DNA of 64,000 bases from Crossiella equi (lineage in GTDB: Bacteria > Actinomycetota > Actinomycetes > Mycobacteriales > Pseudonocardiaceae), in the NCBI RefSeq assembly GCF_017876755.1, contig NZ_JAGIOO010000001.1, positions 2,666,001-2,730,000 on the forward strand, written 5' to 3'. Below are positions 8,353 to 45,646 of this stretch, one piece after another. The notes beneath the pieces were generated by a model, which was not told where the DNA came from, searched no databases, and saw only the letters and a program-made list of their open reading frames with translations. Numbering within the stretch: position 1 is the first letter of the stretch; each line of letters opens with the position of its first letter. Made by a program: the position numbers and the translations under genes.

Positions 8353-9666
8353 ATGCGCGTGCTTTTCGCCACCTACGCGGAGAAGACCCATTTCTACCTG
8401 ATGGCGCCCCTGGCCTGGGCGTTGCGCACCGCGGGCCACGAGGTGCGCGTGGCCAGTCAGCCGGAGCTCACCGACGCGATCACCGGGGCCGGGCTGACCG
8501 CGGTGCCGATCGGCCAGAACCACCCCTTCTGGCGGGTGATGCGCACCTACCCGCTGTTCGACCCGCGCCAGGACAAGGTGCCCCCGTACGGCATCGCGGA
8601 GACCCCGGCCGAGGAGCTCACCTGGGAGTACCTGAAGTGGGGCTACGGGCAGATCGTGCCGTGGTGGTGGCGAATGGTGAACGACACCCTCGTGGACGGG
8701 CTCACCGAATTCTGCCGCCAGTGGAAACCCGACCTGGTCGTCTGGGACCAGATCACCTACGCGGCGCCGATCGCGGCGAAAGCCAGCGGGGCGGTGCACG
8801 CCCGGTTCCTGTGGAGCGTCGACCTGTTCGCGCGAATGCGGAGCCATTTCCTGCGCCTCATGTACGAACAGCCGGCCCACGAACGGGTGGACGTGCTGGC
8901 CGACTGGCTGGGTGCCCAGGTATCCCGGTTCGGCGCGGAGTTCACCGAGGACATGACCAGCGGGCACTTCACCATCGACTACTTCCCCGACTCGCTGCGC
9001 CTGGACCCGGAGCTGGACCTCGACCTGGACCTGGACTACGTGCCGATGCGGTACGTGCCCTACAACGGCGCCTCGGTGGTCCCGGACTGGCTGCGGGAGG
9101 CGCCGGAGCGGCCCCGGGTGTGCCTGACGCTGGGCACCGCGGCGGTGGAGCGCTTCGACGGCTACTCGGTGCCGGTGCAGGAGCTGCTGGACGCCCTCGG
9201 CGAGCTGGACGTGGAGGTGGTGGCCACCCTCGCGCCCGAGCAGCAGGAGGCGCTGACCCGGGTCCCGGCCAACACCCGCGTGGTGTCCTACCTGGCGCTG
9301 AACGTGCTGGTGCCCACGTGCGCGGCGGTGGTGCACCACGGCGGCGCGGGCTCCTACTGCACCACGCTGCTCAACGGGGTGCCGCAGCTGGTGCTCCACA
9401 ACCTGCTGGACGCCCCGGTGCGCGGGCGGCACGTGGTCCGGACCGGCGCGGGCCTGGCCATGCACACCAGCGAGGTGACCGGGCCGAAGGTGGCCGAGGC
9501 GGTGCGCAGGCTGCTCACCGAGCCCTCCTTCGCCGAGGCCGCGGGCAGGCTGGCGGAGGAGGTGTGGGCGCTGCCCAGCCCGAACGAGCTGGTCCCGGTG
9601 CTGGAGGCGCTGACCGCCCGGTACCGCGCCGCGCGGCCGGTGGGGAGCGCCGATGTACGAGGCTGA
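8353..9666 (+). CDS. Macrolide-type (GT1/MGT) glycosyltransferase 1
   Basis: The 437-residue enzyme belongs to the EryCIII/DesVII/TylM2-like family that transfers NDP-deoxysugars to natural-product aglycones. It starts [36 protein letters not shown], the N-terminal acceptor domain. The C-terminal nucleotide-sugar domain shows [21 protein letters not shown] and the donor motif [34 protein letters not shown] precedes the ATG. It overlaps the downstream N-methyltransferase gene by 14 bp; that enzyme makes dimethylamino sugars, so this transferase may use that sugar. It is one of six paralogues in the window. Confidence 0.93.
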
Positions 9667-10360
9667 CCTGGCCGAGGTCTACGACGCGGTCTACGCCGGG
9701 CGCGGCAAGGACTACGCGGCCGAGGCGGCGCGGGTGCTGGACCTGGCCGGACGGGGCCGGGGCGTGCGGTCGCTGCTGGACGTGGCCTGCGGCACCGGAG
9801 CGCACCTGGAGAGCTTCGCCGCGCTGCTGCCCGAGGTCGTGGGCCTGGAGCTCTCCCCGGACATGGCCGCCGCGGCCCGGCGGCGGCTGCCCGGGGTGCC
9901 GGTGCACGAGGGCGACATGCGCGAGTTCGCGCTCGCTGCCCGCTTCGACGTGGTGACCTGCATGTTCAGCTCGATCGCGTACATGCGCGGCCAGGCCGAG
10001 CTGGACCGGGCGCTCGCGCGGATGGCCGCGCACCTGCGCCCGGGCGGTGTGGTCGTGGTGGAGCCGTGGTGGTTCCCGGAGACCTTCCTGCCCGGCTACG
10101 TGGCCGGGGACGTGGTGACCGCGGGCGGGCGCACACTGGCCCGGGTCTCGCACACCGTGCGCGAGGGCGAGGTCTCGGTGATGAGCGCGCACTACCTGGT
10201 CGCGGAGGCGGACACCGGCGTGCGGCACTTCGCGGTGACGCACGTGAACAGCCTGTTCACCCGTGCGCAGTACGAGACGGCGTTCCGGGCGGCGGGGCTG
10301 TCGGTGGAGTTCCTCAGCGGGGGTCCGTCGGGGCGGGGGCTGTTCCGGGGAACGGCGTGA
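9653..10360 (+). CDS. NDP-aminosugar N,N-dimethyltransferase (DesVI/TylM1/EryCVI type)
   Basis: This class I SAM methyltransferase has 235 residues, the same size as DesVI and TylM1. It starts [25 protein letters not shown]. Motif I is [13 protein letters not shown], followed by [49 protein letters not shown] and the C-terminal GGPSGRGLF. These blocks match DesVI-family enzymes as I remember them, which dimethylate the C-3 amino group of NDP-3-amino-3,6-dideoxyhexoses; SpnS acts similarly on a C-4 amine. It is coupled to the glycosyltransferase upstream and overlaps the end of the convergent SARP gene by 47 bp. Confidence 0.9.
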
Positions 10361-12302
10361 ACGGCGCGACCACCGGCTCCCGCGCCCGCTCGGCCAGCCG
10401 GGCGCGCAGCCGCCGCGCCAGCTCGGGCAGCCCGGCGCGCTCGGCCCGTTCGCACACCGCCAGCGCGACCGCGTGCTCCCCCGGCCCGGCGTGCAGGTGG
10501 TGGCGCACCAGGCGGCCCAGCACCACCTGGTGGTGGCCGGGCGGGTCCTGCGTCCCGGACAGGTCGCGGGCGTAGGCCTGGGTCAGCCCGGACAGGCGCA
10601 GGCGGCCCGGGCACGGGCGCTCGGCCAGGTGCACGGTGCACAGCAGGTCGGCCAGGGCGCTCGTGCGGTCCAGGTCGGTGTCGGCCATCGCGGCCGCGGC
10701 GGTCAGCGCGAGCTCGCGGGCCGGGTGGTGGCCCAGCACGCGGAACAGCGCCGCGGCCTCCTCGGGCAGCGTGCGGTAGGTCCAGGACAGCAGCGTGCGG
10801 ATGCTCGTGCACGCGTCGTCCGGTGCGGCCAGGTGGTGCAGCAGCGTGGGCGCGGCCAGCAGGTCCGGCAGTGCGTGCGTGCCCTCCTCCAGCAGCTCGG
10901 CGGCCAGCCGCAGCGCGACCGGCAGGTGGTCGCAGGCCTGGGCCAGCCGCCGCGCCCGCTCCGGCGGCAGCGGCGGGGACACCAGGTCGGCCAGCAGCGC
11001 CTCGGCCTCGGCCTCCGACATCGGCGGCACGGTCAGGCGGCGGGCGCCGTCCCGGGCGGCCAGGCCCGGCATGCGGTTGCGGCTGGTGACCAGGACCAGG
11101 CAGGTCGGGGAGCCGGGCAGCAGCGGGCGCACCTGGTGCGCGGAGGCCGCGTTGTCCAGCACCAGCAGCAGCCGGCGGCCCGCCACCGCGCTGCGGAACT
11201 GCGCGAGCAGCCGCCCCGGGCTGGTCTCGGCGGGCTGGGACCCGCCCAGCCCGGCCAGCAGGTGGCCGAGCGCCTCGGCCGCGGTCAGCGGGCGCGCGTC
11301 GGCCGCGTAGCCCTCCAGGTCCAGGAACAGCTGGCCGTCCGGGTAGCTCTCGGCCAGCTCGTGCGCCAGCCGCAGCGCCAGCGCGGTCTTGCCCACGCCC
11401 GCCGGGCCGTCCAGCAGCAGCACCGCGCCGGGCTCGGTGCCCAGTGCGCGCAGCCGGGCCAGCTCGCGGGCGCGGCCGGTGAAGGGCGGCACCTCGCGGG
11501 GCAGCTGCGCCGGGGCCGGGCGGCCACCACCGGCCTGGCCGGGGCCGCTGCGCAGGATCTGCTGGTGGCAGCGCTGCAGCTCCACGCTCGGTTCGATGCC
11601 CAGCTCGCGGATCAGCGCCTCGCGGGCCTCCCGGAACTCGGCCAGGGCGTCCGCGCGGCGGCCGCAGCGGTGGAAGGCCAGCATGCGCAGCAGCCGGGGG
11701 CGTTCGCGCAGCGGGTGGCGGCGCACGAGCTCGGCCAGCTCGCCCAGCACCTCGGTCGGGCGGTCGACCTCCAGCAGCATCTCGGCGCGCTGCTCCTGGG
11801 CACCGAACCACAGCTCTTCCAGGCGCCGGCGCTCCTCCTCGGCGAACGGGCCCGGCGTGCCCCCGAACGGGGTGCCGCCCCACAGCGCCCGCACACCGTC
11901 CGATTCGGACAGTGCCAGCCGGACCGCGCCGCGCACGGCCAGCTGGCGCACGCGGTCCAGGCGGTCCTGGAAGACGTGCGTGTCCACCCGGTCCGACGGC
12001 AGCTGCAAGGAGTACCCGGCGGTGTCGCCGACCAGCAGCTCGGCCGGGGCGCGCAGCGCGCGGCGCGGTTCCAGGCTGCGGCGCAGGCGCGCCACGTAGG
12101 TGTAGACGCTGCTCTCCACGGTGGCGGGCGGGCTGGCGCCCCACACCGCCTCGATGAGCTCCTCCCGGCTGACCGCCTGCCCGGTGCGGGCCGCGAGCAC
12201 CGCGAACAGGGCCCGCTGCCTCGGCGGTCCGAGCTCCAGGTCACCGCTCCGCCCCGTCGCGGTGACCTGGCCGAGCAACCGCACCCGGATGGCTGCCTCC
12301 AT
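10314..12302 (-). CDS. SARP/AfsR-type transcriptional activator with NB-ARC ATPase domain, lacking TPRs
   Basis: The N-terminus is an OmpR-like winged helix (RVRLLGQVTA..LELGPPRQRALFAVLAARTGQAVSREELIEAVWG), followed by a bacterial transcriptional activation domain (about residues 95-240) and an NB-ARC ATPase with Walker A (LLDGPAGVGKTALALRLA) and Walker B-like (LLLVLDN). The 662-residue protein ends soon after the ATPase, without the TPR array of full AfsR. The chosen ATG has a GGGGGAG ribosome-binding site; the frame is open further upstream. SARPs activate antibiotic clusters from direct heptamer repeats at promoters. It lies downstream of the 12.4-17.1 kb sugar operon with its own 144-bp leader, and is a likely pathway-specific activator. 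Confidence 0.88.
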   Translation of the reverse strand: MEAAIRVRLLGQVTATGRSGDLELGPPRQRALFAVLAARTGQAVSREELIEAVWGASPPATVESSVYTYVARLRRSLEPRRALRAPAELLVGDTAGYSLQLPSDRVDTHVFQDRLDRVRQLAVRGAVRLALSESDGVRALWGGTPFGGTPGPFAEEERRRLEELWFGAQEQRAEMLLEVDRPTEVLGELAELVRRHPLRERPRLLRMLAFHRCGRRADALAEFREAREALIRELGIEPSVELQRCHQQILRSGPGQAGGGRPAPAQLPREVPPFTGRARELARLRALGTEPGAVLLLDGPAGVGKTALALRLAHELAESYPDGQLFLDLEGYAADARPLTAAEALGHLLAGLGGSQPAETSPGRLLAQFRSAVAGRRLLLVLDNAASAHQVRPLLPGSPTCLVLVTSRNRMPGLAARDGARRLTVPPMSEAEAEALLADLVSPPLPPERARRLAQACDHLPVALRLAAELLEEGTHALPDLLAAPTLLHHLAAPDDACTSIRTLLSWTYRTLPEEAAALFRVLGHHPARELALTAAAAMADTDLDRTSALADLLCTVHLAERPCPGRLRLSGLTQAYARDLSGTQDPPGHHQVVLGRLVRHHLHAGPGEHAVALAVCERAERAGLPELARRLRARLAERAREPVVAPFTPFPGTAPAPTDPR

Positions 12303-12446: not shown

Positions 12447-13442
12447 CTATTTCTCCCCGTACGCGCGCGCGAGCCGGTGAAAGGCTTCCTTGGGCGTGCG
12501 CGTGCCGTCCGCACCCACCTTGACCACGCCGAAGCTGGCCACGTCGAGGTCCTTGTGCGGCTTGTGGGAATGCCTCAGGAGCTCTTCGACGAACTCGAAG
12601 ACGTAAGCTCCGTGCACCCGTTCGGAGCGAAATAGCTCAATCAGTTGGGCGAGATAATCCGCCTGTTCGGTCTCATTCCGCACCGTCCCGGGCCGGGGCC
12701 GGGCGCCGAAGAACCGCCAGCTGACGACCTCGTCCCCGTTGGCGCCCTCGACGGCCGCGCCGCGGAAGGTGGCGCAGCCGAACTCGGTGATCAGCACCGG
12801 CTTGCCGTGCTTGTGCAGGGCGCGCAGGTCGTCCAGGTAGGTGCGCTGGTTCTCCGCGCTGCGGTAGAGGTTCATGCCGACGAAGTCGAACTCGGTCCAG
12901 TCCACCTCCTCCCACAGCCCGGCGCTGTAGGTGATCCGGCCGCCGAAGCGGGCGCGGGCCACGGACAGCGCACGGTCGAGCAGGCGGCGCAACCGGTGGT
13001 TGAACCAGGGCAGCTGTGTCCACCTCTGCGGCAGCCGCGCCGCGCGGGTCAGCAGGTGGTTGCCGGGCATGGAGCCGCCGACGAACAGCGACAGCTCGCA
13101 GCCGAGGTTGAGCCCGACCTCGGGCCACCGGCGCCGCAACGGTTCCAGGCGGGCCGCGACCTCGGCGAGCACCGCCAGCACGGCGGGCGGTTCCACGTCG
13201 ACCAGCCTCGGCTGCACCCAGGTGACCAGGCCCAGCTCCAGCGCGGTCTCGGCGGCCTGGAGCAGCCGGTCGGTCTTGCCGCCGAAGAGGGTGACCGCGT
13301 TGCAGTGCAACCGGTCGCGGATGACGAGCAGCTCGCGCCGCACCAGCTCCGGACTCCAGGTCCGGCGCGAGAGCAGGTAGCGCCCGTACCGCGTGCCGAC
13401 GTCGTAGTTGATGCCCCGTTCGACGAGGACCGGCCGGTTCAT
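12447..13442 (-). CDS. Clan GH-A-like glycoside hydrolase (TIM barrel)
   Basis: The 331-residue cytoplasmic protein has no signal peptide. Blocks typical of a (beta/alpha)8 hydrolase are visible: VERGINYDVGTRYG, GLVTWVQPRLV, GLNLGCELSLF (possible acid/base Glu), FDFVGMNLYRS, and GKPVLITEFGCATF, whose Glu in ITEFG matches the beta-7 nucleophile position of clan GH-A. I cannot name the exact family. It is the last gene of a tightly coupled sugar operon (4-bp overlap with the preceding glycosyltransferase). It may trim a sugar from an intermediate or product, by analogy with the OleR/DesR reactivation glucosidases, although those are GH3 enzymes and secreted. Confidence 0.65.
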   Translation of the reverse strand: MNRPVLVERGINYDVGTRYGRYLLSRRTWSPELVRRELLVIRDRLHCNAVTLFGGKTDRLLQAAETALELGLVTWVQPRLVDVEPPAVLAVLAEVAARLEPLRRRWPEVGLNLGCELSLFVGGSMPGNHLLTRAARLPQRWTQLPWFNHRLRRLLDRALSVARARFGGRITYSAGLWEEVDWTEFDFVGMNLYRSAENQRTYLDDLRALHKHGKPVLITEFGCATFRGAAVEGANGDEVVSWRFFGARPRPGTVRNETEQADYLAQLIELFRSERVHGAYVFEFVEELLRHSHKPHKDLDVASFGVVKVGADGTRTPKEAFHRLARAYGEK

Positions 13443-14725
13443 GCCACCCCGGTGCAGCCGTCGGCGGCCAGGCGGGCCTCGATCGCGCGCACCACCTCGG
13501 CCGGTCCGGGCATCGCCCGCAGCGTCCCGGCCAGGGCCTCCGCGCCCGCCCGGTAGGACGGTTCGGTGAGCAGCTCGCCGACCGACTTGGTGAGCCCGTC
13601 AGCGGTCACCTCGCCCGGCGGGATGACCAGACCGGCGCCGTGCCGCGGGATGAGCCGGGCCAGCACGGGCTCGTCGAAGACCTTGGGCACCAGCAGCTGC
13701 GGCACCGCGTGCCGGGCCACGGTGAACAGCGTGCCCGGCCCGGCGTGGTTGATCACCACCGAGCAGGTGGGCGCGAGCACGTTGAGGGCGACGAAGGACA
13801 CCAGGCGCACGTTGGCGGGCACCGAGGTGAGCTTGCGCTGCTCGGCCTCGGCGATCGTGGCCACCACCTCGACGTCCAGGTCGGCCAGCGCCTCGAGCAC
13901 GTCGGCCACCGGGACCGCGTACTTGTCGAAGTAGGCCTGCAGCGAGGTGCCCAGGGTCAGGCACACGCGCGGCCGGTCGGGGGCCTTGCGCAGCCACGGC
14001 TCCACGACGGCCTTGCCGTTGTAGGGCACGTACCGCATCGGCAGGTAGTCGTGGTCGGTCGGCAGGTCCAGCCCGGCGTCGGCGCGCAACGAGTCCGGGA
14101 TGCAGTCGATGGAGAACTGGCCGCTGACCAGGTCCTCGTGGAAGCGCACACCGTGGGGCTGGAGGCGGTCGGTGAGCCAGCGGGCCAGCGCGTCCTCGCG
14201 GCCGAAGGCCGAGCGCTGGGCCTTGTGGCGCAGGTAGTGCCCGCGCATGCGCCCGAACAGGTCCACGCTCCACAGCAGCCGCGCGTGCCGGGCCCCGCAC
14301 ACCGCGGCGGCCAGCGAGCCCGCGAAGGTCAGCGGCTCCCAGACGACCAGGTCCGGTCGCCAGTGCTGGGCGAAGGCGATCAGGTCGTCGATCATCGGCT
14401 CGTTGACCACGCGCCACCACCAGTGCACGTTGTCGCGGTAGCCGCTGGTGAGGTAGTCCCAGGTGAGCTCGTCGGCGGGCCGGGTGAAGTCGAACTCCGG
14501 CTCGGTCTCCTCCTCGGGCAGGCTCTGGCTGGCCTGCACGACCGCGCCGAGCTGGTGGTCCTTGCCGACCGGCACCGCGGTCAGGCCGGCGCCGGTGACG
14601 GTGTCCACCATGGACGGTTGCACCGCGACGCGGACCTCGTGGCCCAGGTTCTGGAACTCCCACGCCAGCGGCACCATGCCGAGCAGGTGCGTGCGCTCGG
14701 CGTGCGCGGTGAACAGGACCCTCAT
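13439..14725 (-). CDS. Macrolide-type (GT1/MGT) glycosyltransferase 2, with degenerate donor motif
   Basis: The 428-residue paralogue has the same layout as the other five: MRVLFTAHAERTHLLGMVPLAWEFQNLGHEVRV, then VCLTLGTS and VEVVATIAEAEQ. The donor-binding motif is changed: VVINHAGPGTLFTVARHAVPQLLV carries HAGPGT where the others have HHGGxGS/T. The first Gly of the HGG element is Ala and the next residue is Pro. Activity may be kept or altered. It overlaps the upstream dehydratase gene and the downstream hydrolase gene by 4 bp each, so the four-gene operon is translationally coupled. Confidence 0.9.
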   Translation of the reverse strand: MRVLFTAHAERTHLLGMVPLAWEFQNLGHEVRVAVQPSMVDTVTGAGLTAVPVGKDHQLGAVVQASQSLPEEETEPEFDFTRPADELTWDYLTSGYRDNVHWWWRVVNEPMIDDLIAFAQHWRPDLVVWEPLTFAGSLAAAVCGARHARLLWSVDLFGRMRGHYLRHKAQRSAFGREDALARWLTDRLQPHGVRFHEDLVSGQFSIDCIPDSLRADAGLDLPTDHDYLPMRYVPYNGKAVVEPWLRKAPDRPRVCLTLGTSLQAYFDKYAVPVADVLEALADLDVEVVATIAEAEQRKLTSVPANVRLVSFVALNVLAPTCSVVINHAGPGTLFTVARHAVPQLLVPKVFDEPVLARLIPRHGAGLVIPPGEVTADGLTKSVGELLTEPSYRAGAEALAGTLRAMPGPAEVVRAIEARLAADGCTGVA

Positions 14726-16047
14726 GCCGGACCACCCTTGAGGACGAACTCGCGGATCGTCTCCGCGATGTAGGCGGACATCTCCTCGGTGATGGCCGGG
14801 TAGACCCCGACCCAGAACGTGCCCTCGGTGACCAGGTCGCTGTTGGTGAGCTCGCCGTGCACGCGGTAGTGCCGGTCCTGGTAGGCGGGGTGCCGGACCA
14901 GGTTGCCGCCGAACAGGCCGCGGGTGCTGACCAGTCGCTCCTCCAGGAAGGCCACCAGCTCGCCGCGGGTGAACGGGGCCTCCGGGTCGACGGTGACCAC
15001 GAAGCCGAACCAGCTCGGGTCGGACTTCGGCGTGGGCTCGGGCAGGATGAGCCCGGGCAGGCCGTCCAGCTCGGCGCGCAGGAAGTTCCAGTTGCGGCGG
15101 CGGATGCGGCCGAACTCCTCGAGCCGGTCGAGCTGGCTCAGGCCCAGGGCGGCCTGGAGGTCGGTGGTCTTGAGGTTGTAGCCCACCGCGGAGAAGACGT
15201 ACTTGTGGTCGTAGCCGTGCGGCAGGGTGCCCAGCTGCTGGTCGAAGCGCTTGAAGCAGCGGTTGTCCTCACCGGGCGCGCACCAGCAGTCCCGGCCCCA
15301 GTCCCGCAGCGACTCCACCAGCCGCGCCAGGCCCAGGTCGGAGGTGAGCACGCACCCGCCCTCGCCCATGGTGATGTGGTGCGCCGGGTAGAAGCTGACC
15401 GTGGACAGGTCGCCGAAGGTGCCGGTGAGCCTGCCCTCGTAGGTGGTGCCGACCGCGTCGCAGTTGTCCTCGACGAGGTAGAGCCCGTGCTCGGCGGCCA
15501 GCTCGGCCATCTCCCGCGCCGCGTAGGGGTTGCCGAGCGAGTGGGCGATCATGATGGCCTTGGTGCGCGGCCCGATCGCGGCGGCCACCCGGTCCGGGGT
15601 GGTGTTGTAGGTGCCCAGCTCGATGTCGACGAAGACGGGCACGAGGCCGTTCTGCAGGATCGGGTTGACCGTGGTGGGGAACCCGGCGGCCACCGTGATC
15701 ACCTCATCGCCCGGCCGCAGCTGCTGCTCGCCCATGGCGGGCTGGCACAGGGCGGAGAGCGCGAGCAGGTTCGCCGAGGAGCCCGAGTTGGTCAGATGTG
15801 CCTTGCGCAGCCCGAAGTAGCGGGCGAAACGGCTCTCGAACCGGGTGGAGCTGGTCCCGGCGGCGATGCGCAGGTCCAGGGCCGCCTCGACCAGGGCGAC
15901 CCGGTCCTCGGGCGCCAGGTCCGCGCCGGAGGCGAGGATGCGCGTGCGGCCCGGGACGAAGCCCGGTCCGGTGGTCTGCTCGTGGTAGTCCCGGACCTGG
16001 GCCAGGATCTGCTCCTTCACCACGCTGGTCCGCTCCGCGAGGCTCAT
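14722..16047 (-). CDS. PMP-dependent NDP-4-keto-6-deoxyhexose 3-dehydratase (E1/SpnQ/RfbH type)
   Basis: The 441-residue protein has the fold of PLP aminotransferases (DEVITVAAGFPTTVNP, GLYLVEDNCDAVGTTYEG), but the usual lysine is replaced by His in SFYPAHHITMGEGG. That substitution is the signature of E1-type 3-dehydratases (AscC, RfbH, SpnQ), which use PMP and a reductase to remove the C-3 hydroxyl of NDP-4-keto-6-deoxysugars. C-terminal Cys residues in RDWGRDCWCAPGEDNRC fit the iron-sulfur-binding cysteines of E1. The start follows AGGGGAGCCGACG. No dedicated reductase partner is seen in the window. It is coupled by 4-bp overlaps to the ketoreductase upstream and glycosyltransferase 2 downstream. 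Confidence 0.92.
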   Translation of the reverse strand: MSLAERTSVVKEQILAQVRDYHEQTTGPGFVPGRTRILASGADLAPEDRVALVEAALDLRIAAGTSSTRFESRFARYFGLRKAHLTNSGSSANLLALSALCQPAMGEQQLRPGDEVITVAAGFPTTVNPILQNGLVPVFVDIELGTYNTTPDRVAAAIGPRTKAIMIAHSLGNPYAAREMAELAAEHGLYLVEDNCDAVGTTYEGRLTGTFGDLSTVSFYPAHHITMGEGGCVLTSDLGLARLVESLRDWGRDCWCAPGEDNRCFKRFDQQLGTLPHGYDHKYVFSAVGYNLKTTDLQAALGLSQLDRLEEFGRIRRRNWNFLRAELDGLPGLILPEPTPKSDPSWFGFVVTVDPEAPFTRGELVAFLEERLVSTRGLFGGNLVRHPAYQDRHYRVHGELTNSDLVTEGTFWVGVYPAITEEMSAYIAETIREFVLKGGPA

Positions 16048-18803: not shown

Positions 18804-18837
18804 GAGTTCCCACCTTGTCTACGAAGGGGAAAAAGCG

Positions 18838-35631: not shown

Positions 35632-35657
35632 CCAACCCCAGCCCCCGTGCGGGACCG

Positions 35658-35828
35658 GCCAACACGAGGTACGAGATCGGCAAACACGAACAACCGTCCC
35701 GGCCAACACGCCCCAACCCCCAACCCCCACGCGTGTTGGCCGATCCCGTACCTCGTGTTGGCCGATCCCGTACCTCGTGTTGGCCGATCCCGTACCTCGT
35801 GTTGGCCCACCCCGCACGTCGTGTTGGC
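35658..35828. repeat. 22-bp-period CGTGTTGGC repeat array with opposed arms
   Basis: Left arm (minus orientation): cores at 35658-35666, 35680-35688 (one mismatch) and 35702-35710, 22 nt apart. Right arm (plus orientation): cores start at 35732, 35754, 35776, 35798 and 35820, exactly 22 nt apart. The first three intervening 13-mers are identical (CGATCCCGTACCT) and the fourth diverges. The left and right arms are mutually complementary and could form a long hairpin. It occupies the gap between convergent aminotransferase and SDR genes and shares its core with the repeats at 4.4 and 45.7 kb. Confidence 0.92.
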
Positions 35829-35892
35829 CGTGTGCGCGACCGGTCCCGGGCCCGGCGTCGAAGCCGGGGCCGGGACCGGTCGCCGTGGCGGG

Positions 35893-36861: not shown

Positions 36862-36863
36862 GC

Positions 36864-38297: not shown

Positions 38298-39455
38298 TCA
38301 GCGGGCCGAGGTGAGCACCCGTTTCAACCGCCACGCACCCAGCAGGTACAGCACCACGGCGAACGCGGCGAGCACCCCGAGCTGCGGCAGGATGTCCAGC
38401 ACCGTGCCCTCGCGCCGCAGCAGCACCACGAACGCGTCGTAGCCCCAGGCGTGCGGGGTGAGGTAGGCGATCTGCTTCATGGTCGGGTTGAACGACTCCA
38501 GCGGCACCATCGCGCCCCCGATCGCCGCGATCCCCAGCCCCAGCAACGGTGCCATGGACAGCGCGGTCCCGACGGTCTTGGCCACCGAGCCGAGCAGCAT
38601 CGCCGCCCCGCTGCCCACCATGGCGAACAACAGCAGCAACACCCCCGAGGCGAGCGGGTCGCCCCAGTCCACGCCGAAGGCCAGCGCCGAGCCGAGCATG
38701 ATGACCAGCCCCTGCACCAGCGCGATCACCATCCGCCCGGAGGCCTCCCCGGTGACGATCGTGCGGGTCGAGGTGGGTGTGGCGTACATCCGGCCCGCCA
38801 CGCCGAGCTGCCGCGTCTCCACCAGGCCGACCGCGGCGGTCAGCGAGGTGAGGAAGACGAACAGCAGCAGCAGGGGCGGCGCGGACACGCTGAACTGGCT
38901 GAACCCCGGCGGGTACTGGGCGTTGCCCGCGGTGGTCGCCTGCACCGACACCCCCGGCACCGTCACCTCCCGCGCGATCGCCAGCCCGCGCTCGAACGGC
39001 ACACCCTCCTCGGCCCCGAGCCGCGCGGCGCGCACCTTCGCGGCCTCCTGCGGCACCACCGAGCGCAGCCACACGCCGACGTCCTGCGCGCGCCGGTCGT
39101 TCGGGCGCACCAGGTAGCTCAGCGTGATGTCCTTGCCCTGCCTCAGGTCCGCGTCGTAGCCGGGCGGCACGGTGAGCCCGGCGTGCAGCTGCCCGCGTTC
39201 CACCCGCGAGCGCAGCTCCTCGGCCGAGGCCAGCCGTTCCACCTGGATGCGGTCGCCCTGCCCGAGTGAGCGCAGCAGCGAGTCGGTCAGCTCCCCGGAC
39301 CCGGCGACCACACCGAGCCGCAGCTGCTGGCCTCCGCCGAACAGCAGCCCGATCACGAAGATCATCAGGAACGGCACCGCGAGGACCATGAAGATGTTGT
39401 TCCGGTCGCGGAACAGGCGGCGCAGGTTCAGCACGCCGATCGCCAGCACCTTCAT
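38298..39455 (-). CDS. ABC-2 type exporter permease B
   Basis: The 385-residue integral membrane protein has one N-terminal membrane helix (NIFMVLAVPFLMIFVIGLLF), a large extracytoplasmic domain (~residues 45-190) and about five C-terminal helices (LLLLFVFLTSLTAAVGL, MVIALVQGLVIMLGSALAF, ASGVLLLLFAMVGSGAAMLL, MAPLLGLGIAAIGGAMV, LGVLAAFAVVLYLLGAW). This is the ABC2_membrane_3 layout. The start at 39455 overlaps the preceding permease stop by 4 bp; the longer open frame is rejected. It is the last gene of the export operon. Confidence 0.9.
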   Translation of the reverse strand: MKVLAIGVLNLRRLFRDRNNIFMVLAVPFLMIFVIGLLFGGGQQLRLGVVAGSGELTDSLLRSLGQGDRIQVERLASAEELRSRVERGQLHAGLTVPPGYDADLRQGKDITLSYLVRPNDRRAQDVGVWLRSVVPQEAAKVRAARLGAEEGVPFERGLAIAREVTVPGVSVQATTAGNAQYPPGFSQFSVSAPPLLLLFVFLTSLTAAVGLVETRQLGVAGRMYATPTSTRTIVTGEASGRMVIALVQGLVIMLGSALAFGVDWGDPLASGVLLLLFAMVGSGAAMLLGSVAKTVGTALSMAPLLGLGIAAIGGAMVPLESFNPTMKQIAYLTPHAWGYDAFVVLLRREGTVLDILPQLGVLAAFAVVLYLLGAWRLKRVLTSAR

Positions 39456-40630
39456 GACCGGACCACCTTTCCGAGGCGCAGCAGGGCGATCGCGCCACCC
39501 GCCACGGCGAACCCGAGCAGGACCAGCACCGGCGTCCACACCACGGCCAGCCCGCCGCCACCGGAGAGGTCGGCCAGACCGCGCAGGAACCAGCGGTGCG
39601 GGGTGAAGTAGCTGATCACGCTGAGCCCGCCGAGGTCGGCCACCGGGAACAGCGCGCCGCCGAGCACCCCGAGCAGCATCGCGGCCGCGGACTGCCAGTT
39701 GGAGGCCTGCTCACCGGTGCGCGCGAACACCGCGACCACCGACATCACGCCGGTCGCGGCGAGCACCCCGGCCAGGATCAGCAGCGCCAGCCCGGCGACG
39801 TCCTGGCCCCAGTTGGCGTCCAGCAGCCAGGTGGAGGCGAGCACCAGCACGATCATGTTGATGATGCCGACCAGCACCCCGGACAGCATCTTGCCGACCA
39901 GGATCGAGCGCGGCCGGATCGGGGCGGCGAGCAGGCGCGGCAGCGTGCCCGCGCGGCGCTCGTCGAGGATGCCGGTCACGGTGAACAGCGCGGCGAAGAA
40001 CAGGAAGAACACCGCCATGCCCGCCGCGTAGAAGGTCTTGGAGTCCAGCTCCCGCCGGGCCGCCGAGGCGTCCTCGGTGACCGAGACCGGCGGGGACGCG
40101 GTCTGCACCCGCACGGTCAGCTCGGCCTCCCGCTCGGGTTCGACGGTGCCGCCCGCGCGCACCACGGCCAGGGCCAGCTGCACGGACCGCCGTCCGGCGG
40201 CGTAGGACTCGGCGATCTCGCGGGCCACCTGCACCTGGATCGCGGAGTCCACGTTGCCGATCAGGCGCAGCACAGCCGGTCTCCCGGCCTCGGCGTCGGC
40301 GGAGAACCCGGCGGGCAGCACGTACAGCGCGTCCAGCTCCTTGGCCTCCAGCTGCCGCACGCCCTCCTCCTGGCTGGACGCGGTGCGCAGCGAGATGCGG
40401 CCGTCCTTGTCCATGGGCTTGAGCACGTGGTCGATGAGCTCGGCGGAGAGCGCACCGCGGTCCTGGTCCAGGACGGCGTAGCGCGCGGTGATCGGCTGGG
40501 TCGCGTTGCCCAGCACGAGGTTGAACAGGAAAGCCATCCCCAGCGGCAGGATGACAGCGAAGATGATCAGCGCGACGTCCCGCAAGCGCTGACTGAGGTC
40601 CTTCGTGAGGATCACCAGGGTCGCCCGCAT
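39452..40630 (-). CDS. ABC-2 type exporter permease A
   Basis: The 392-residue paralogous permease begins MRATLVILTKDLSQRLRDVALIIFAVILPLGMAFLF, followed by a ~150-residue extracytoplasmic region and five C-terminal membrane helices (FYAAGMAVFFLFFAALF, GVLVGIINMIVLVLAS, VAGLALLILAGVLAATGVM, AAAMLLGVLGGALF, VLVLLGFAVAGGAIALL). It is encoded between the ATPase (12 bp upstream) and permease B (4-bp overlap), so the two permeases probably form a heterodimer. Export of the cluster product, and thereby self-protection, is the likely role. Confidence 0.9.
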   Translation of the reverse strand: MRATLVILTKDLSQRLRDVALIIFAVILPLGMAFLFNLVLGNATQPITARYAVLDQDRGALSAELIDHVLKPMDKDGRISLRTASSQEEGVRQLEAKELDALYVLPAGFSADAEAGRPAVLRLIGNVDSAIQVQVAREIAESYAAGRRSVQLALAVVRAGGTVEPEREAELTVRVQTASPPVSVTEDASAARRELDSKTFYAAGMAVFFLFFAALFTVTGILDERRAGTLPRLLAAPIRPRSILVGKMLSGVLVGIINMIVLVLASTWLLDANWGQDVAGLALLILAGVLAATGVMSVVAVFARTGEQASNWQSAAAMLLGVLGGALFPVADLGGLSVISYFTPHRWFLRGLADLSGGGGLAVVWTPVLVLLGFAVAGGAIALLRLGKVVRS

Positions 40631-40642
40631 GGCCAGCGCCCC

Positions 40643-41584
40643 CTAGTCCCGCAACGCCTTGCCGGTGAGCTGGAGGAACACGGCCTCCAGGTTCGGCTCG
40701 ACCACCTCGACCGACCGCACCGCGGCCCCGGCGGCGGCCACCGCGGCGAGCAGGCCGGGCAGCTGCGCACGGGCGTCGGCGACCAGCGCGTGCACGCGGT
40801 GCTCCTCGGCCCCGGCCTCGCGGACCTCCGGCAGCGCGGCCAGTTCCCGTTGGGCGGCGAGGACATCGCCGTCGAGGGTGAACAGCACCTGGTCGCTCTC
40901 CTTGACCAGGTCGACCAGCTCGCGCCGGGTGCCCTCGGCCTGGAGCCGGCCGCTGTCGATGATGCCGACGCGGTCGCAGAGCCGCTCGGCCTCCTCCATG
41001 TAGTGCGTGGTGTAGAGGACGGCGGTGCCCTCCCCGGCCAGGCGCTGCACGCTGTCCAGGATCGCGTTGCGGCTGTGCGGGTCCACGCCCGCGGTGGGCT
41101 CGTCGAGCACGAGCAGCCTCGGCTTGTTCAGCAGCCCGGCCGCGATGTTGAGGCGCCGGGCCATGCCGCCGGAGTAGGTCCCGGTGGCGTCGCCCGCGCG
41201 GTCGGAGAGCCCGACCACCTCCAGGACCTCGTCGACCTTGCTCCGCAGCCGCTTGCCGGACAGCCCGTACAGCCGGGCGAAGAAGCGGAGGTTCTCCCGC
41301 CCGGAGAGGTCCTGGTAGAGCGCGAGGTCCTGCGGCACGTACCCGATGAGCGCCTTGCTCTTCATCGAGTTGACCGAATGCGGAATTCCGTCGACGGTGA
41401 CCATGCCCGCGTCGCGGGCAAGAATTCCCACAATCATCGCGATCGACGTGGTCTTACCGGCGCCATTCGGCCCGAGTAGCCCGTAGGTCTCCCCCTCGGC
41501 GATGGAAAAACTGATTCCGTCCACGGCGACTAAATCGCCATATGACTTGCGCAAACCCTCGCACACCAAAATGGCGTCACTCAT
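40643..41584 (-). CDS. ABC transporter ATP-binding protein (DrrA-like)
   Basis: The 313-residue ATPase has Walker [16 protein letters not shown]-loop [13 protein letters not shown], signature [12 protein letters not shown], Walker [17 protein letters not shown] and H-loop [13 protein letters not shown]-terminal ~80-residue extension ([31 protein letters not shown]) is typical of DrrA-type drug exporters. The ATG at 41584 opens right at the nucleotide-binding domain. It lies 79 bp downstream of the lanthipeptide precursor gene on the same strand, tying the exporter to that peptide. Confidence 0.94.
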
Positions 41585-41663: not shown

Positions 41664-41756
41664 TCAGCAGCCTGAGCTCTCCAGACTCTCCGGCAGCTGG
41701 TCGTACTCGGGTGCCGCGTCCAGCACCTGCAGTTCCAGGACATCGACCAAGTCCAT
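41664..41756 (-). CDS. lanA: Class III lanthipeptide (lipolanthine-type) precursor peptide
   Basis: A 30-residue peptide starts 8 nt after a very strong GGGAGGGG ribosome-binding site. Residues 6-13 (VLELQVLD) match the class III leader box (I/L)-L-x-L-Q recognised by LanKC enzymes. The C-terminal SLESSGC has Ser24-x-x-Ser27-x-x-Cys30, the labionin-type spacing, and Cys30 is the last residue, as needed for oxidative decarboxylation by a LanD enzyme. A leader of ~20 acidic residues (PEYDQLPE) lies between. It is divergent from the GNAT-LanD-LanKC genes and is the first gene of the exporter operon. The core boundary is unknown. The gene is too small for routine gene finding. Confidence 0.85.
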   Translation of the reverse strand: MDLVDVLELQVLDAAPEYDQLPESLESSGC

Positions 41757-41833: not shown

Positions 41834-41849
41834 GTCTCGCCGGCGGGAC
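41834..41849. promoter_or_regulatory. Near-perfect palindrome GTCTCGC-CG-GCGGGAC in the lanA/GNAT divergent promoter region
   Basis: It has one mismatch from the cluster palindrome and lies in the 238-bp region (41757-41994) between precursor and GNAT. It contains CTCGCCGGCG, which from memory resembles the CGCCGGCG core reported for LmbU binding. It lies ~78 bp upstream of the precursor start. A weaker GCTAG/CTAGC inverted repeat occurs at 41791-41810. Confidence 0.5.
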
Positions 41850-41994: not shown

Positions 41995-42591
41995 GTGCTG
42001 ACTGCCCATGCCCAAACCCAGCGGATCGCGCTGCGCCCGATCGAGCCCGGCGACGGGACCGCCGTGTACGAGCTGCTGCTGCGCCTCGGCCTGCACAGCC
42101 TGCCACCGCTGGAGACGTTCCTGAGCACCTACGACCGGGGCGCGAACGCGATCTTCCGGATCACCGCGCGGCACAACGGCGAGACGGTCGGCTTCGGCTC
42201 GCTGCAACACCTGGACCCCCACGGGCACATCCAGGTGGGCATCTTCACCGATCCGGACAAAGCGCGCCTGGGCATCGGCGGCGAGGCGATGATGCTGCTG
42301 GTCAACTACGCCTTCGCCACCTGGGAGGAGGTCCGCAAGATCTACTTCCTGACCACGGACGTGCACCTGGAGGCCTTCGGCACCACGCTGGCCCGGGTGC
42401 CGCGCGAGCTGACGCTGCCGGAGCACGTCTACTTCGCGGGCAGGCTGTGGGACCTGCACTGGTACGCGATCTACCGCGAGGAGTGGACGGCGCTCAACGC
42501 CCCGGTGCTGGACCGCCTGGTGCGGGGCCCTGCCGTGCGCACCACGCTGGAACCGGCGGCCGAGCCCGACTCCGCACCCACCCCGGCGTGA
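41995..42591 (+). CDS. GNAT-family acyltransferase of the lanthipeptide operon (GdvG-like role proposed)
   Basis: The 198-residue GNAT has RIALRPIEPGDGTAVYELL at the N-terminus, ETVGFGSLQHLDPHGHIQVGIFTDPDKARLGIGGEAMMLLVNYAFATWEEVRKIYFLTT in the core (the ARLGIGGEAM stretch is the acyl-CoA/pantetheine-binding loop position), and LHWYAIYREEWTAL. Goadvionin and, by genome context, other lipolanthines use a GNAT to join an acyl chain from an ACP to the peptide amino terminus; this gene, coupled by a GTGA overlap to LanD and next to the precursor, fits that role. The inference rests on context, not on a diagnostic residue. Confidence 0.78.
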   Translation: MLTAHAQTQRIALRPIEPGDGTAVYELLLRLGLHSLPPLETFLSTYDRGANAIFRITARHNGETVGFGSLQHLDPHGHIQVGIFTDPDKARLGIGGEAMMLLVNYAFATWEEVRKIYFLTTDVHLEAFGTTLARVPRELTLPEHVYFAGRLWDLHWYAIYREEWTALNAPVLDRLVRGPAVRTTLEPAAEPDSAPTPA

Positions 42592-43178
42592 GGTTCCCGG
42601 TACCGGCGTTCACCGGGCGGCGGCTGCTGTTCGTGGCCTCCGGCGCGGTGACCGCGGTGCAGCTGCCGTTCTGGCTGAACTGGCTGACCACGAGCTACCC
42701 GGACCTGGAGACGCGGGTGGTGCTGACCACGAGCGCGGCGCGGTTCGTGAGCCCGCACGCGGTGGCCCAGCTGACCGGCGCGCCGCCGCTGCCGGACCGC
42801 TGGCCGGAGGACCCGGTCCCGGGCGCCCCGCACGTGGAGCTGGCGCGGTGGTGCGACACGGCGGTGGTCTTCCCGGCCTGCCTGCACTTCCTGTCCCGCC
42901 TGGCCCTGGGCCTGGCCGACACCCCGGCGCTGCTGGCCCTGCACTGCCTGACCGCGCCGATCGGCCTGGCCCCGTCCCTGCCGCCGGGCGCGGACCGGAA
43001 CCCGATCGTGCGGGACAACCTGGCCCGCCTGGCGGACCGGGAGAACGTGGTGGTGGCCCCGACCACCCCGGCCCGCAGCCTGACCACCGGCCACAAGGAC
43101 GCGGCCGGCTCCTGTCCACTGTGGACGCTCCTGGAACTGGTCGAGGCCCGGCGCGGGGACGAGCCGTGTTCGAGCTGA
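42588..43178 (+). CDS. lanD: HFCD-family flavoprotein, LanD-type peptidyl-cysteine decarboxylase
   Basis: The 196-residue flavoprotein has the fold start FTGRRLLFVASGAVTAVQLPFWLNWL, TRVVLTTSAARFVSP, a conserved-histidine-like segment HVELARWCDTAVVFPACLHFLSRLALGLADTPALLALHCL, and VVVAPT. LanD enzymes (EpiD, CypD, MicD) use FMN to decarboxylate a C-terminal peptidyl Cys to an aminoenethiol, needed for AviCys or avionin. The precursor at 41.7 kb ends in Cys, which agrees. The substrate-binding motif is not obvious by eye. It is coupled to the GNAT (GTGA) and overlaps LanKC by 13 bp. Confidence 0.88.
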   Translation: MRFPVPAFTGRRLLFVASGAVTAVQLPFWLNWLTTSYPDLETRVVLTTSAARFVSPHAVAQLTGAPPLPDRWPEDPVPGAPHVELARWCDTAVVFPACLHFLSRLALGLADTPALLALHCLTAPIGLAPSLPPGADRNPIVRDNLARLADRENVVVAPTTPARSLTTGHKDAAGSCPLWTLLELVEARRGDEPCSS

Positions 43179-45646
43179 CCCAGCTGCACTGCTTCGCCGA
43201 CGAGTTCTTCTTCGAGGACGTGAGCCACTGGCGCGAGGGACCGGACTTCCTGGGCGAGCGCGAGCCACCACCGGGCTGGACGCGCACCCACCGCCGGACC
43301 TGGACGATCCTGCACCCGCCCCGGCCGGAGCTGCCGGACCAGGGCTGGAAGGTGCACGTCTCCGGCACCCCGGCGAACGCGGCCAGGCTGTGCACAGCGG
43401 TGTGGGACCACTGCACCGCCAGGGGAATCGCCTTCAAACACCTGCGCGACCACAGGATCCTGCTGGCGGTGAACGCGAAGTACGCCCCCCGGTCGGGCAG
43501 CGGCAAGCTCCTGACGATCTACCCTCGCGATGAGGCCGAGCTGACGACCGTCCTCACCGGACTGTCCACAGTGCTCGACGGCGAGCCGGGCCCGCGCATC
43601 CTCAGCGACCTGCGCTACCGCGAGGGTCCGCTGCACGTGCGCTACGGCGCGTTCCGCACGATGACCTGTGTCGACGAACGCGGGGACTGGGTACGCGCGC
43701 TGCGCCGCCCGGACGGCGCACTGGTACCCGACCCCCGCGTTCCGGCCTTCCGCCCGCCTGCCTGGGTCCAGCTCCCCGCCGTCCTGCGCACCGACCGCCA
43801 GCCGCGGCCGTTCCCGTACCGCGTGGACCGGGCCCTGCACTTCTCCAACGCGGGCGGCATCTACCTGGCCACCCGCACCGCCGACGGCCGCCAGGTGGTC
43901 CTGAAGGAGGCCCGCCCGCACACCGCGGTGGACGAGAACGGCGAGGACGCGCCCACCCGCCAGTCCCGCGAGGCCGACGCCCTGCACCGCCTGTCGGGCC
44001 TCCCGGGTGTCCCGGAACCGCTGGACCGGTTCACCGCCGACGGCCACCACTTCCTGGTGCAGTCGGTCGTCCCGGGTGAGCCCCTGCACGTGTGGTTCGG
44101 CATCCACCACCCGTGGGTCACCACCCCCGACCCGACCCGCGAGGCCGTCGCGGCCTACACCGCCCGCGCGCTGCGTGTCCTGGACCGCCTGTCCACCCTG
44201 CTGGCCGCGATCCACGCCCGGGGCCTGGTCTTCGGCGACCTGCACCTGGGCAACATCATGATCGCCCCGGACGACTCGGTGGGCCTGGTCGACTTCGAGC
44301 TCGCCTTCCCGACCACGGCCACGACCTGGCGCCCGGGCCTGCGCGCGACGGGCTTCGGCCGCCGGGACCTGACCGGCCTGGCGGTGGACCGCTACGCCTT
44401 CGCCGCGGTCCAGCTGGGCACCTTCCTGAGCTACGGCCGCCTGATCGCCCTGGACCCGCACAAGGTGGCGGAGTTCGTCCGCATCATCGGAGACAACTTC
44501 CCGGTACCGGCAAGTTGGCTGCAATCGGTCTCCCATGACTTGACGCCCATCACCACCGCCCCGGCACACCGTCCCCCGCTCTCACCGCGCACGATCGCGA
44601 ACGGCATCGTGGCCATGGCGCAGCCGTACCGTGAAGACCGCATATTCCCGGGTGATGTGGAGCAGTTCGCCCCCGGTGGCGGAGGCCTGACCCTGGCCCA
44701 CGGCGCGGCGGGCGTGCTCTGGGCCCTGTCGGTCACGGGCCACGGCCGCCACCCGGCCCACGAACGGTGGCTGCGCGCCGCGGCGACCCGCCTGCGCCAC
44801 CCGAACCCGGGCTTCTACAACGGCATCGCGGGCGTGGCCTACGCCCTGCACCACCTGGGCCACCGAACCGAGGCCGCGACCCTGCTGGACCGCCACCTGG
44901 CCGAGGTCCCCGAACGCCTGAACCACTCCCTGTTCAGCGGCCTGGCGGGCATCGGCGCGACCCTGCTGCACTTCGGCGACCAGCCGCGAGCGCTGAACCT
45001 GGCCGACAACCTGCTGTCCAGGCCCCCGGACGGCCACCGGGGCGCGGGCCTGATGCACGGCTGGTCGGGCGTGGCACTGTTCCTGCTGCGCCTGTTCGAC
45101 CACACCGCCGACCCGGCCCTCCTGGACGCGGCCACGACCTGCCTGCACCGGGACCTGGACCAGTGTGTGTCCACTTCGGACGGTACCCTGATGGTCGAGG
45201 AGAAGGGCGTGCGCACGATGCCCTACCTGGACGTGGGCAGCGCGGGCATCGCCCTGGTCGCCGACGAGCTGCTGGCCCACCGCCCAGACGACCGCACCGC
45301 GACCGCGCTCCCCCTGCTGCTGCGCGCCTCCTGCCGCCGCTTCTCCTTCCAGGCCAACCTCTTCCAGGGCTTCGCGGGCCACCTGGCGACCCTGGCCCGC
45401 CTGAGCCCACGCCACGACCACTCTCCGACCCTGCGCCGCCACCTGACCGAGCTCCCCTGGCACGCCCTGACATACCGAGGCCACCCCACCTTCGCGGGCA
45501 CCCAGGGCGTCCGCCTGTCCACCGACCTGGCAACGGGCGCGGCGGGCGTCCTGCTGGCCACGGCCACCGCCACCCACCCGAACGCCCCCTTCCTCCCCTA
45601 CTTCTCCCCCCGCCCAACCCCCCTCCCGCATTGGCCCTTCCCGTAG
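43166..45646 (+). CDS. lanKC: Class III lanthipeptide synthetase (lyase-kinase-cyclase)
   Basis: The 826-residue enzyme has three domains. Residues ~1-220 are the lyase part (starts FELTQLHCFADEFFFEDVSHW). Residues ~225-480 are a Ser/Thr kinase-like part: VVLKEARP (ATP lysine), HARGLVFGDLHLGN with the catalytic Asp near 358, and LVDFE near 376. Residues ~500-826 are the LanC-like cyclase with seven glycine motifs (HGAAG, NGIAG, SGLAG, HGWSG, VGSAG, QGFAG, TGAAG) and no evident zinc triad, as is usual in class III. It phosphorylates and eliminates Ser residues and forms the labionin/avionin ring. The last residues (HWPFP-stop) are encoded by a degenerate unit of the 22-bp repeat. Confidence 0.95.
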   Translation: MFELTQLHCFADEFFFEDVSHWREGPDFLGEREPPPGWTRTHRRTWTILHPPRPELPDQGWKVHVSGTPANAARLCTAVWDHCTARGIAFKHLRDHRILLAVNAKYAPRSGSGKLLTIYPRDEAELTTVLTGLSTVLDGEPGPRILSDLRYREGPLHVRYGAFRTMTCVDERGDWVRALRRPDGALVPDPRVPAFRPPAWVQLPAVLRTDRQPRPFPYRVDRALHFSNAGGIYLATRTADGRQVVLKEARPHTAVDENGEDAPTRQSREADALHRLSGLPGVPEPLDRFTADGHHFLVQSVVPGEPLHVWFGIHHPWVTTPDPTREAVAAYTARALRVLDRLSTLLAAIHARGLVFGDLHLGNIMIAPDDSVGLVDFELAFPTTATTWRPGLRATGFGRRDLTGLAVDRYAFAAVQLGTFLSYGRLIALDPHKVAEFVRIIGDNFPVPASWLQSVSHDLTPITTAPAHRPPLSPRTIANGIVAMAQPYREDRIFPGDVEQFAPGGGGLTLAHGAAGVLWALSVTGHGRHPAHERWLRAAATRLRHPNPGFYNGIAGVAYALHHLGHRTEAATLLDRHLAEVPERLNHSLFSGLAGIGATLLHFGDQPRALNLADNLLSRPPDGHRGAGLMHGWSGVALFLLRLFDHTADPALLDAATTCLHRDLDQCVSTSDGTLMVEEKGVRTMPYLDVGSAGIALVADELLAHRPDDRTATALPLLLRASCRRFSFQANLFQGFAGHLATLARLSPRHDHSPTLRRHLTELPWHALTYRGHPTFAGTQGVRLSTDLATGAAGVLLATATATHPNAPFLPYFSPRPTPLPHWPFP

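Follow-up and report, generated by a model that had tools for sequence, protein, structure and literature searches.

To our knowledge, lanthipeptides and very large oligosaccharide antibiotics are known only as separate classes. Among the former, the lipolanthines (microvionin, nocavionin/nocaviogua and the goadvionins) are made by a class III LanKC synthetase and a LanD decarboxylase from a short Ser-X2-Ser-X2-3-Cys core that ends in Cys, and their clusters also encode acyl machinery and an acyltransferase of the GNAT family; lipolanthine products bear an N-terminal acyl group and an avionin ring. Glycosylated lanthipeptides include NAI-112, which is of class III, and cacaoidin, which carries a disaccharide in addition to its rings. 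Passages in the literature describe NAI-112 as containing labionin and a deoxyhexose N-linked to Trp (PMC10373908, PMC7268733) and cacaoidin as a lanthipeptide glycosylated through Tyr (PMC10373908). The saccharomicins of Saccharothrix espanaensis (sam cluster) have a caffeoyl-taurine aglycone, for whose amide step a penicillin-amidase gene is proposed in sections of the same account (PMC3469384). Here we analyse 64,000 nucleotides of Crossiella equi (positions 2666001-2730000 of a 9.44-Mb single-contig genome; hereafter the window), in which an earlier note had proposed one cluster for a glycosylated, lipidated avionin-type peptide. We consider it likely that one gene cluster in the window directs the synthesis of a class III lanthipeptide that is N-acylated and polyglycosylated. 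This reading draws on the gene content, the conservation of LanKC alongside such genes in nine further genomes, a clade of cluster LanKCs, a palindromic box shared by the sugar and peptide parts, and the agreement between LanD and a C-terminal Cys in the precursor. The product, its site of sugar attachment, the identity of its acyl chain and all the chemistry given below are predicted from homology.

The cluster and its lanthipeptide genes

The cluster spans 8353-45646 (~37 kb) and, as the earlier note had it, lies between housekeeping genes, here DXS (6019-7926) and DnaE (46774-50319). Gene calling by third-position GC content (GC3) with manual additions gave 35 annotated genes in this span, named from Pfam, NCBIfam and PDB comparisons. 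They comprise six glycosyltransferases (GTs), 11 sugar-type genes, a fatty acyl-AMP ligase (FAAL), a ketosynthase (KS), two acyl carrier proteins (ACPs), a small AMP-ligase, two GNATs, SARP and LmbU regulators, an ABC exporter, LanA, LanD and LanKC. The claims of six MGT-type glycosyltransferases (all six have Pfam EryCIII-like N and C domains), of at least ten deoxysugar genes and of the lipid-module gene list therefore stand, with ACP2 scoring below the family thresholds. No large polyketide synthase (PKS) or nonribosomal peptide synthetase (NRPS) was found among the genes called in 8-46 kb, again as claimed. This absence alone does not prove a peptide aglycone: saccharomicin has a caffeoyl-taurine aglycone, and the genes examined of its cluster include no large PKS or NRPS either.

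LanKC (43166-45646, plus strand) scores above the NCBIfam cut-off for class III (NF038151, 901 vs 575 bits) and has the lyase, kinase and LanC-like domains of that class; RamC_N and LANC_like pass, and Pkinase scores below the Pfam threshold. LanA (41664-41756, minus strand) is a 30-aa precursor, MDLVDVLELQVLDAAPEYDQLPESLESSGC, behind GGGAGGGG, which fits the class III pattern, with a leader MDLVDVLELQ (LxLQ-type) and a Ser-X2-Ser-Xn-Cys core (approximately ESLESSGC) ending in SLESSGC. It is divergent from GNAT1 (41995-42591, plus strand), LanD (42588-43178, plus strand) and LanKC, three genes with overlapping frames, in which LanD starts at 42588, overlapping GNAT1 by 4 bases, and LanKC at 43166. 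The Ser-X2-Ser-X2-Cys core with its terminal Cys matches the pattern of nocaviogua, given in passages of its published description as Ala-Avi-Val-Ser-Avi-Asn-Gly-Avi, the peptide reading A-S-V-S-S-N-G-C (PMC10435860). The lipolanthine combination of LanD and a C-terminal Cys is present in the window, LanD being CypD-like (a cysteine decarboxylase, best PDB match 6jdd) and scoring under the NCBIfam cut-off (85 vs 215 bits). By homology and motif, LanKC would phosphorylate and eliminate the serines of the core, LanD would decarboxylate the C-terminal Cys, and the two enzymes together would close an avionin ring. The strain's genome has 13 LANC_like family matches, hence several lanthipeptide-type systems.

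Related clusters with and without LanKC

Co-conservation of LanKC with the sugar and GT genes, the check suggested in the earlier note, was found in nine other genomes, which have LanKC, LanA and the sugar, GNAT and AMP-ligase genes, seven on one contig and two over two contigs. A scan of GTDB r220 with a GNAT alignment gave 24 loci in 19 genomes, and 12 of the 14 genomes searched had a LanKC match (E 1e-20) anywhere in the genome. Four genomes (Sinosporangium siamense, Nocardiopsis sp. ATB16-24 and two Nonomuraea) have LanKC inside the cluster, on a single contig. For Nocardiopsis alba and Sinosporangium album the cluster is apparently divided between two contigs, and that of S. album is incomplete and without most sugar-nucleotide genes. 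The LanKCs of S. siamense, both Nonomuraea and both Nocardiopsis score best, at 764-901 bits; other genomes of a family-wide sample reach at most 716. In a class-wide sample GNAT1 (1e-15) was present in 9 of 394 genomes, our own included. In three of the other eight (G576, G692 and G592), LanKC is accompanied by two precursors per genome, by GTs and by most of the other genes; a Streptomyces (G700) is of an NRPS type; and G431, G499, G584 and G655 are fragments or contig ends with no LanKC in the stretch retrieved. We tabulated 10 lanthipeptide-type clusters, the window among them, and six clusters without LanKC, 16 in all. S. siamense keeps 24 of 28 window gene types as well as LanA, missing RfbH, the 130-aa protein, GH113 and NUDIX. 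In both Nonomuraea, 18-19 kb separate LanD-LanKC from LanA, which is flanked by GNAT and GT genes.

In the LanKC tree, the window and six cluster LanKCs form a seven-row clade (support 100/100), apart from 29 other family rows, one of them from the window's own genus. The 47 rows of the tree are the window, the 29 top-scoring sequences of the family sample, 16 from genomes of the GTDB scan and a piece from S. album; G576, G692 and G592, which were retrieved later, are not among them. Sequences were assembled from tblastn pieces, with X in place of stops, and the branch of row L119 is very long. The one-cluster claim of the earlier note is thus supported by co-conservation, by this clade and by the shared palindrome described below. 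Precursors of the nine relatives were found with the regular expression used for the window LanA. Four of the 10 clusters, those of the window, S. siamense and both Nonomuraea, have LanD, and in exactly these four Cys is the last residue of the precursor. The precursors of N. alba, S. album, G576, G692, G592 and Nocardiopsis ATB16-24 (which has three) continue beyond the Cys, and LanD was not found there, so that LanD and a C-terminal Cys agree in 10 of 10 clusters, the incomplete S. album included. From their sequences, the LanD-plus clusters would fit avionin and the LanD-less clusters labionin.

The family-wide sample comprised 297 genomes, our own included. LanKC (E<=1e-60) was present in 158, LanD (1e-20) in 11 and GNAT2 (1e-10) in six. 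In the five other genomes with GNAT2, the stretches retrieved contain ACP2, GTs, amino-sugar genes and GNAT pairs but no LanKC (in G090 there is also no C-methyltransferase in its 40 kb), and this sample taken alone would favour refutation of a one-cluster reading. These five and one Streptomyces make up the six sister clusters without LanKC. The region in S. espanaensis, which is the saccharomicin cluster, encodes ten GTs and has genes like Sam5, Sam7 and Sam8. A PanD-type aspartate decarboxylase and a PALP-family enzyme lie beside the GNATs in two of the 16 clusters (S. espanaensis and S. tamanrassetensis). G053 has an NRPS with condensation, adenylation and carrier domains, and G259, G090 and G700 have three to four adenylation-type matches each, labelled NRPS by similarity alone. 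No cluster was found with two acceptor types (taurine-type, NRPS, lanthipeptide) within the stretches retrieved. Since the six LanKC-less clusters share the sugar/acyl module, the amine acceptor (taurine, NRPS peptide or lanthipeptide) looks swappable. In the earlier note, sugar/lipid genes without lanthipeptide genes were to count as evidence of two independent clusters. Formally half of this is seen, in the six clusters without LanKC in the stretches retrieved; because these carry another amine source, they suggest a reusable module rather than two neighbouring clusters.

Prauserella cavernicola, G259, G090 and Streptomyces abikoensis have GTs, a GNAT pair, ACP2, a lyase and NRPS-type adenylation domains, and their products are probably glycosylated hydroxycinnamoyl peptides. 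Genome G021 holds a lipolanthine-type cluster whose two near-identical precursors end in STGSITC; it also has a PKS-like gene and two GT-like genes that differ in type, with a GSRGDVQP/GTRGDVQP motif seen by eye. We rejected it as proof that KS and FAAL belong to lipolanthines: its LanKC-LanD genes adjoin the PKS-like gene, and KS (58%), FAAL (45%) and an ACP belong to a different operon, 11-18 kb off and beyond a transposase-like gene (the PKS-like and transposase-like names were given by eye).

Acyl, sugar and regulatory genes

The small AMP-ligase (27711-28739, plus strand) is 52% identical to an S. espanaensis protein, presumably Sam7, that adjoins the Sam8-like lyase of the saccharomicin cluster. 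Its sole NCBIfam match is 4-coumarate-CoA ligase (TIGR02372), at 76 vs 335 bits and thus under the cut-off. A Sam7-like AMP-ligase is present in all 10 lanthipeptide-type clusters, and a Sam8-like aromatic lyase in all nine relatives (in S. siamense as a Pfam aromatic amino acid lyase, in the other eight as 64-71% homologues). The Sam8-type lyase and the HpaB-type hydroxylase Sam5 were both absent from window positions 8-46 kb at E 1e-5, and Sam5 was found in none of the nine relatives. RmlB, present in all nine, was likewise not found in 8-46 kb. The best matches elsewhere in the genome are at 51% for the lyase, at 790 kb, and at 66% for RmlB, at 3.88 Mb; without the two, the cluster must borrow from elsewhere in the genome or use another acid. 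We did not accept the gene at 790 kb as the missing lyase; it is a Pfam aromatic lyase, but matches at 51% only and lies in another cluster.

FAAL (20532-22193, plus strand), the FabF-like KS (26135-27379, plus strand, with the catalytic Cys seen in its active-site motif) and ACP1 (27475-27714, plus strand, PF00550) are shared, among the relatives, only with S. siamense (52%, 61% and 38%, respectively). Six other relatives have a KASIII-like protein. In the stretches read of G576, G592 and S. album it is followed by an acyl-CoA dehydrogenase, a free-standing adenylation protein of 487-497 aa and a small protein that resembles a carrier but has no Pfam match, a set that we take to resemble pyrrole-carboxylate modules. 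A hydroxycinnamoyl cap may be the common theme of the family. As to the chain that lipolanthines derive from a cluster PKS or fatty acid synthase, the window has FAAL, the FabF-like KS and ACPs without a type I PKS, and its Sam7-like ligase points to an aryl acid. The lipidation proposed in the earlier note is thus no more than a possibility: FAAL and KS would allow a fatty chain in the window, although the acyl genes common to the family point to an aryl acid.

GNAT2 (33316-33849, plus strand, no Pfam match) is 36% identical to GNAT1, which bears out the paralogy claimed earlier. In the GNAT tree, the GNATs of saccharomicin and NRPS clusters form their own clades and those of the window fall with lanthipeptide-cluster GNATs, GNAT1 with support of 93/94 and GNAT2 in a 12-row split of 96/90 with weak placement. 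A PDB search with a GNAT profile returned generic acetyltransferases only. ACP2 (33846-34106, plus strand, DSF serine) has homologues in eight of nine relatives and in all six sister clusters. The AMP-ligases (Sam7-like and FAAL) would load acids onto the carrier proteins, and GNAT1, encoded in the GNAT1-LanD-LanKC operon, would transfer the acyl group to the peptide amine; GNAT2 may assist GNAT1 or acylate an amino sugar. All 16 clusters have GNATs and 15 have ACP2, compared with a match to the penicillin-amidase gene in only two, which suggests GNAT and ACP2 as a testable answer for caffeoyl-taurine amide formation.

The six GT frames are open (GT1, 8353-9666, plus strand; GT2, 13439-14725, minus; GT3, 17508-18803, minus; GT4, 24789-26054, minus; GT5, 29178-30485, plus; GT6, 30397-31692, plus), and each relative has five to nine GTs. 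A GT tree made by a quick method gave no clear one-to-one orthology between families, and hence no candidate for the GT that acts first. The 11 sugar-type genes begin with RmlA (glucose-1-phosphate thymidylyltransferase; 18832-19710, plus; TIGR01207, 412 vs 361 bits), an RfbH-type NDP-sugar 3-dehydrase (14722-16047, minus; NF011936, 644 vs 423 bits; 68-70% in two Nocardiopsis) and a GFO/IDH/MocA sugar ketoreductase (16044-16865, minus). Two further DegT proteins are DegT2 (NDP-sugar aminotransferase; 22203-23312, plus) and DegT3 (sugar 3-aminotransferase; 34540-35631, plus), the latter close to 2oga, which we take to be DesV (best PDB match, E=1.3e-124), and to QdtB (3frk, third), and adjoining the FdtA/QdtA-type 3,4-ketoisomerase (34103-34543, plus; PF05523). 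An NDP-hexose 2,3-dehydratase (23329-24738, plus; PF03559) and a TcaB9-type sugar 3-C-methyltransferase (31911-33098, minus; PDB 3ndi, E=3.4e-186) follow. The window thus has the saccharomicin-family combination of several EryCIII-like GTs, 2,3-dehydratase, aminotransferase and C-methyltransferase. The remaining three are a SAM methyltransferase (9653-10360, plus; 67% in S. siamense), UDP-glucose 6-dehydrogenase (UGDH; 36864-38165, minus) and a UDP-glucuronate decarboxylase-like enzyme (UDP-xylose synthase; 35893-36861, minus; PDB 4lk3, E=8.7e-48). The methyltransferase is assigned to amino-sugar N-methylation by context only; its sole NCBIfam match, a daptide RiPP methyltransferase, is under the cut-off (71 vs 175 bits), and it could instead N-methylate the peptide.

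From these homologies, the C-methyltransferase would make a 3-C-methyl sugar, RfbH would imply a 3-deoxy sugar, and UGDH with the decarboxylase xylose or a related pentose. The set as a whole would supply a 3-amino-3-C-methyl, a 3-amino-3,6-dideoxy and a 3-deoxy sugar and probably xylose, which the six GTs would add, most likely on the phenol of the acyl cap or else on ring Ser/Thr. Attachment to the phenol follows the analogy of the saccharomicin structure. UGDH and the decarboxylase are present in eight of nine relatives and in none of the six sister clusters, so the pair seems to go with the peptide; each ABC-2 permease has the same distribution. The S. siamense and Nonomuraea clusters have, near their branched amino-sugar genes, an acyl-CoA-dehydrogenase-family gene not found in the window, possibly, by a resemblance we presume, a nitrososynthase.

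The LmbU-family regulator (19979-20500, plus; NF038070, 219 vs 125 bits) is the likely switch, and would act through a shared palindrome. This candidate LmbU box, GTCCCGCNNGCGGGAC, contains CGC-NN-GCG, the published LmbU core; LmbU is reported, in passages of two papers, to bind CGCCGGCG, extended TCGCCGGCGA (PMC6510168, PMC10763038). Exact copies lie at 17547-17562, inside the 3' end of GT3, at 27419-27434, between KS and ACP1, and at 33231-33246, in the divergent promoter of the C-methyltransferase and GNAT2; a copy with one mismatch lies at 41834-41849, in the divergent promoter of LanA and GNAT1, where S. siamense also has a box. As the first of these is inside a gene, not every box need be a promoter element. 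The cluster holds three of the four exact sites in the whole 9.44-Mb genome, and the reversed control gave none. Pieces from relatives and sister clusters have one to six sites each at one mismatch or fewer, compared with means of 0-0.4 in ten first-order shuffles; the pieces retrieved later from the class-wide GNAT1 draw have one to four boxes each, without a shuffle control. The shared palindromes of the earlier note are therefore upheld as one motif at three exact sites and one with a mismatch; at two mismatches the scan of the window is not above chance (5 found, shuffle mean 3.3). The fourth exact box of the genome, at 795111, is inside a called gene near the aromatic lyase gene of another cluster (780000-799999).

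Export would be served by a DrrA-like ABC ATPase (40643-41584, minus; drrA model 275 vs 312 bits, start revised by eye) and ABC-2 permeases a (39452-40630, minus) and b (38298-39455, minus). A SARP/AfsR-type regulator (10314-12302, minus) has a 49% counterpart in S. siamense, and a NUDIX hydrolase lies at 28705-29127 (minus). A GH113-like protein (12447-13442, minus; under its Pfam cut-off) and a 130-aa protein (17149-17541, plus; no Pfam match, by eye carrier-like without the pantetheine serine) have no match in the 15 other clusters tabulated. Pieces of an IS4/5-family transposase lie between LanKC and DnaE (45858-46624). A 22-bp repeat unit (GCCAACACGAGGTACG core) occurs in three intergenic places (4366-4429, 35658-35828 and 45642-45723), as arrays in the latter two, with 12 sites within three mismatches in the window against a shuffle mean of 0.8.

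Competing explanations and known systems

Several observations weigh against one cluster for a glycosylated acyl-peptide. The sugar/acyl module occurs in six clusters without LanKC and can work without a peptide; LanD and the coumarate-ligase match score under their cut-offs; the lyase and RmlB are missing from 8-46 kb; and GNAT2 is placed weakly in its tree. GNAT1 and GNAT2 as orthologues of the saccharomicin-type GNAT pair, an idea prompted by a degenerate P-loop in the alignment, were rejected as unsupported by the tree. The LmbU gene was not found in the two Nonomuraea regions, though the box is present. That two independent clusters touch by chance between 35.9 and 41.7 kb is very improbable: convergent gene ends and the 22-bp repeats at 35632-35892 could mark a join, but the two gene sets occur together in nine genomes with differing gene orders, Nonomuraea has LanA surrounded by GNAT and GT genes, and both parts contain the palindrome, all of which largely refutes such a join. 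It is unlikely, though less so, that one co-inherited cluster under one regulon yields a lanthipeptide and, as a second and separate product, a glycoside resembling saccharomicin. The sister clusters, with homologous GNAT, ACP, GT and, where covered, AMP-ligase and lyase, make or should make a LanKC-free product; they carry, however, another acceptor source (PanD/PALP, NRPS or adenylation-type matches), and GNAT1 overlaps LanD within the LanD-LanKC operon. In the 40 kb retrieved from G655 there are genes of lanthipeptide type (KASIII-like, permeases) without a LanKC, but its cluster reaches the contig start.

A plain lipolanthine with minor sugars, in which FAAL and KS provide a fatty chain as in microvionin and goadvionin and most GTs build one short chain or are idle paralogues, overlaps with the reading we favour and is a less likely possibility of some weight. 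FAAL, KS and ACP1 are intact, S. siamense has them too, and the window has no aromatic lyase; yet the Sam7-like AMP-ligase is in every one of the 10 clusters, the six GT frames are open, and each relative has five to nine GTs. We doubt that the cluster is decaying and silent. Loss of the lyase and RmlB and the transposase pieces beside LanKC would suit decay, whereas the frames of all 35 annotated genes are open, the GC3-called genes have coding-type GC3, and an RmlB homologue is available elsewhere in the genome.

A single cluster for a glycosylated, N-acylated lanthipeptide thus stays the likely reading. We lean, with some reserve, towards placing it in a new hybrid class, in which a saccharomicin-type oligosaccharide/hydroxycinnamoyl module under one LmbU-type palindrome would serve a swappable amine acceptor (taurine, NRPS peptide or lanthipeptide), the window representing an avionin branch and LanD-less members such as Nocardiopsis a labionin branch. 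If this is true, gene-encoded lanthipeptides are joined to very large oligosaccharide antibiotics, and the peptide could be edited by codons with the sugar/acyl machinery kept, giving a programmable route to heavily glycosylated acyl-peptide antibiotics. No description of a polyglycosylated lipolanthine was found in a literature search of open-licence PMC papers, a scope that leaves subscription papers aside.

Of the known glycosylated lanthipeptides, NAI-112 differs in its Trp-linked sugar, the window precursor having no Trp and the cluster encoding six GTs. Cacaoidin, of class V, is like the predicted product a glycosylated lanthipeptide; its synthetase is of another class, and we know of no acyl machinery of the window's type for it. 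The lipolanthines agree with the window in the class III LanKC, LanD, the short core with its C-terminal Cys, acyl machinery and a GNAT, whereas the window adds six GTs, 11 sugar-type genes and a coumarate-ligase-like enzyme common to the saccharomicin cluster, and has no type I PKS. With the sam cluster it shares homologous GTs, branched amino-sugar genes, RmlA, the AMP-ligase, ACP2, GNATs, an LmbU regulator and the palindrome. It differs from that cluster in having UGDH and the decarboxylase, and in that a Sam8-type lyase, Sam5 and a PanD-type gene (Sam29-like, for taurine supply) were not found in the window; in the sam cluster, in turn, no LanKC or LanA was found. The cluster is best filed as a variant joining the lipolanthines to saccharomicin-type glycosylation.

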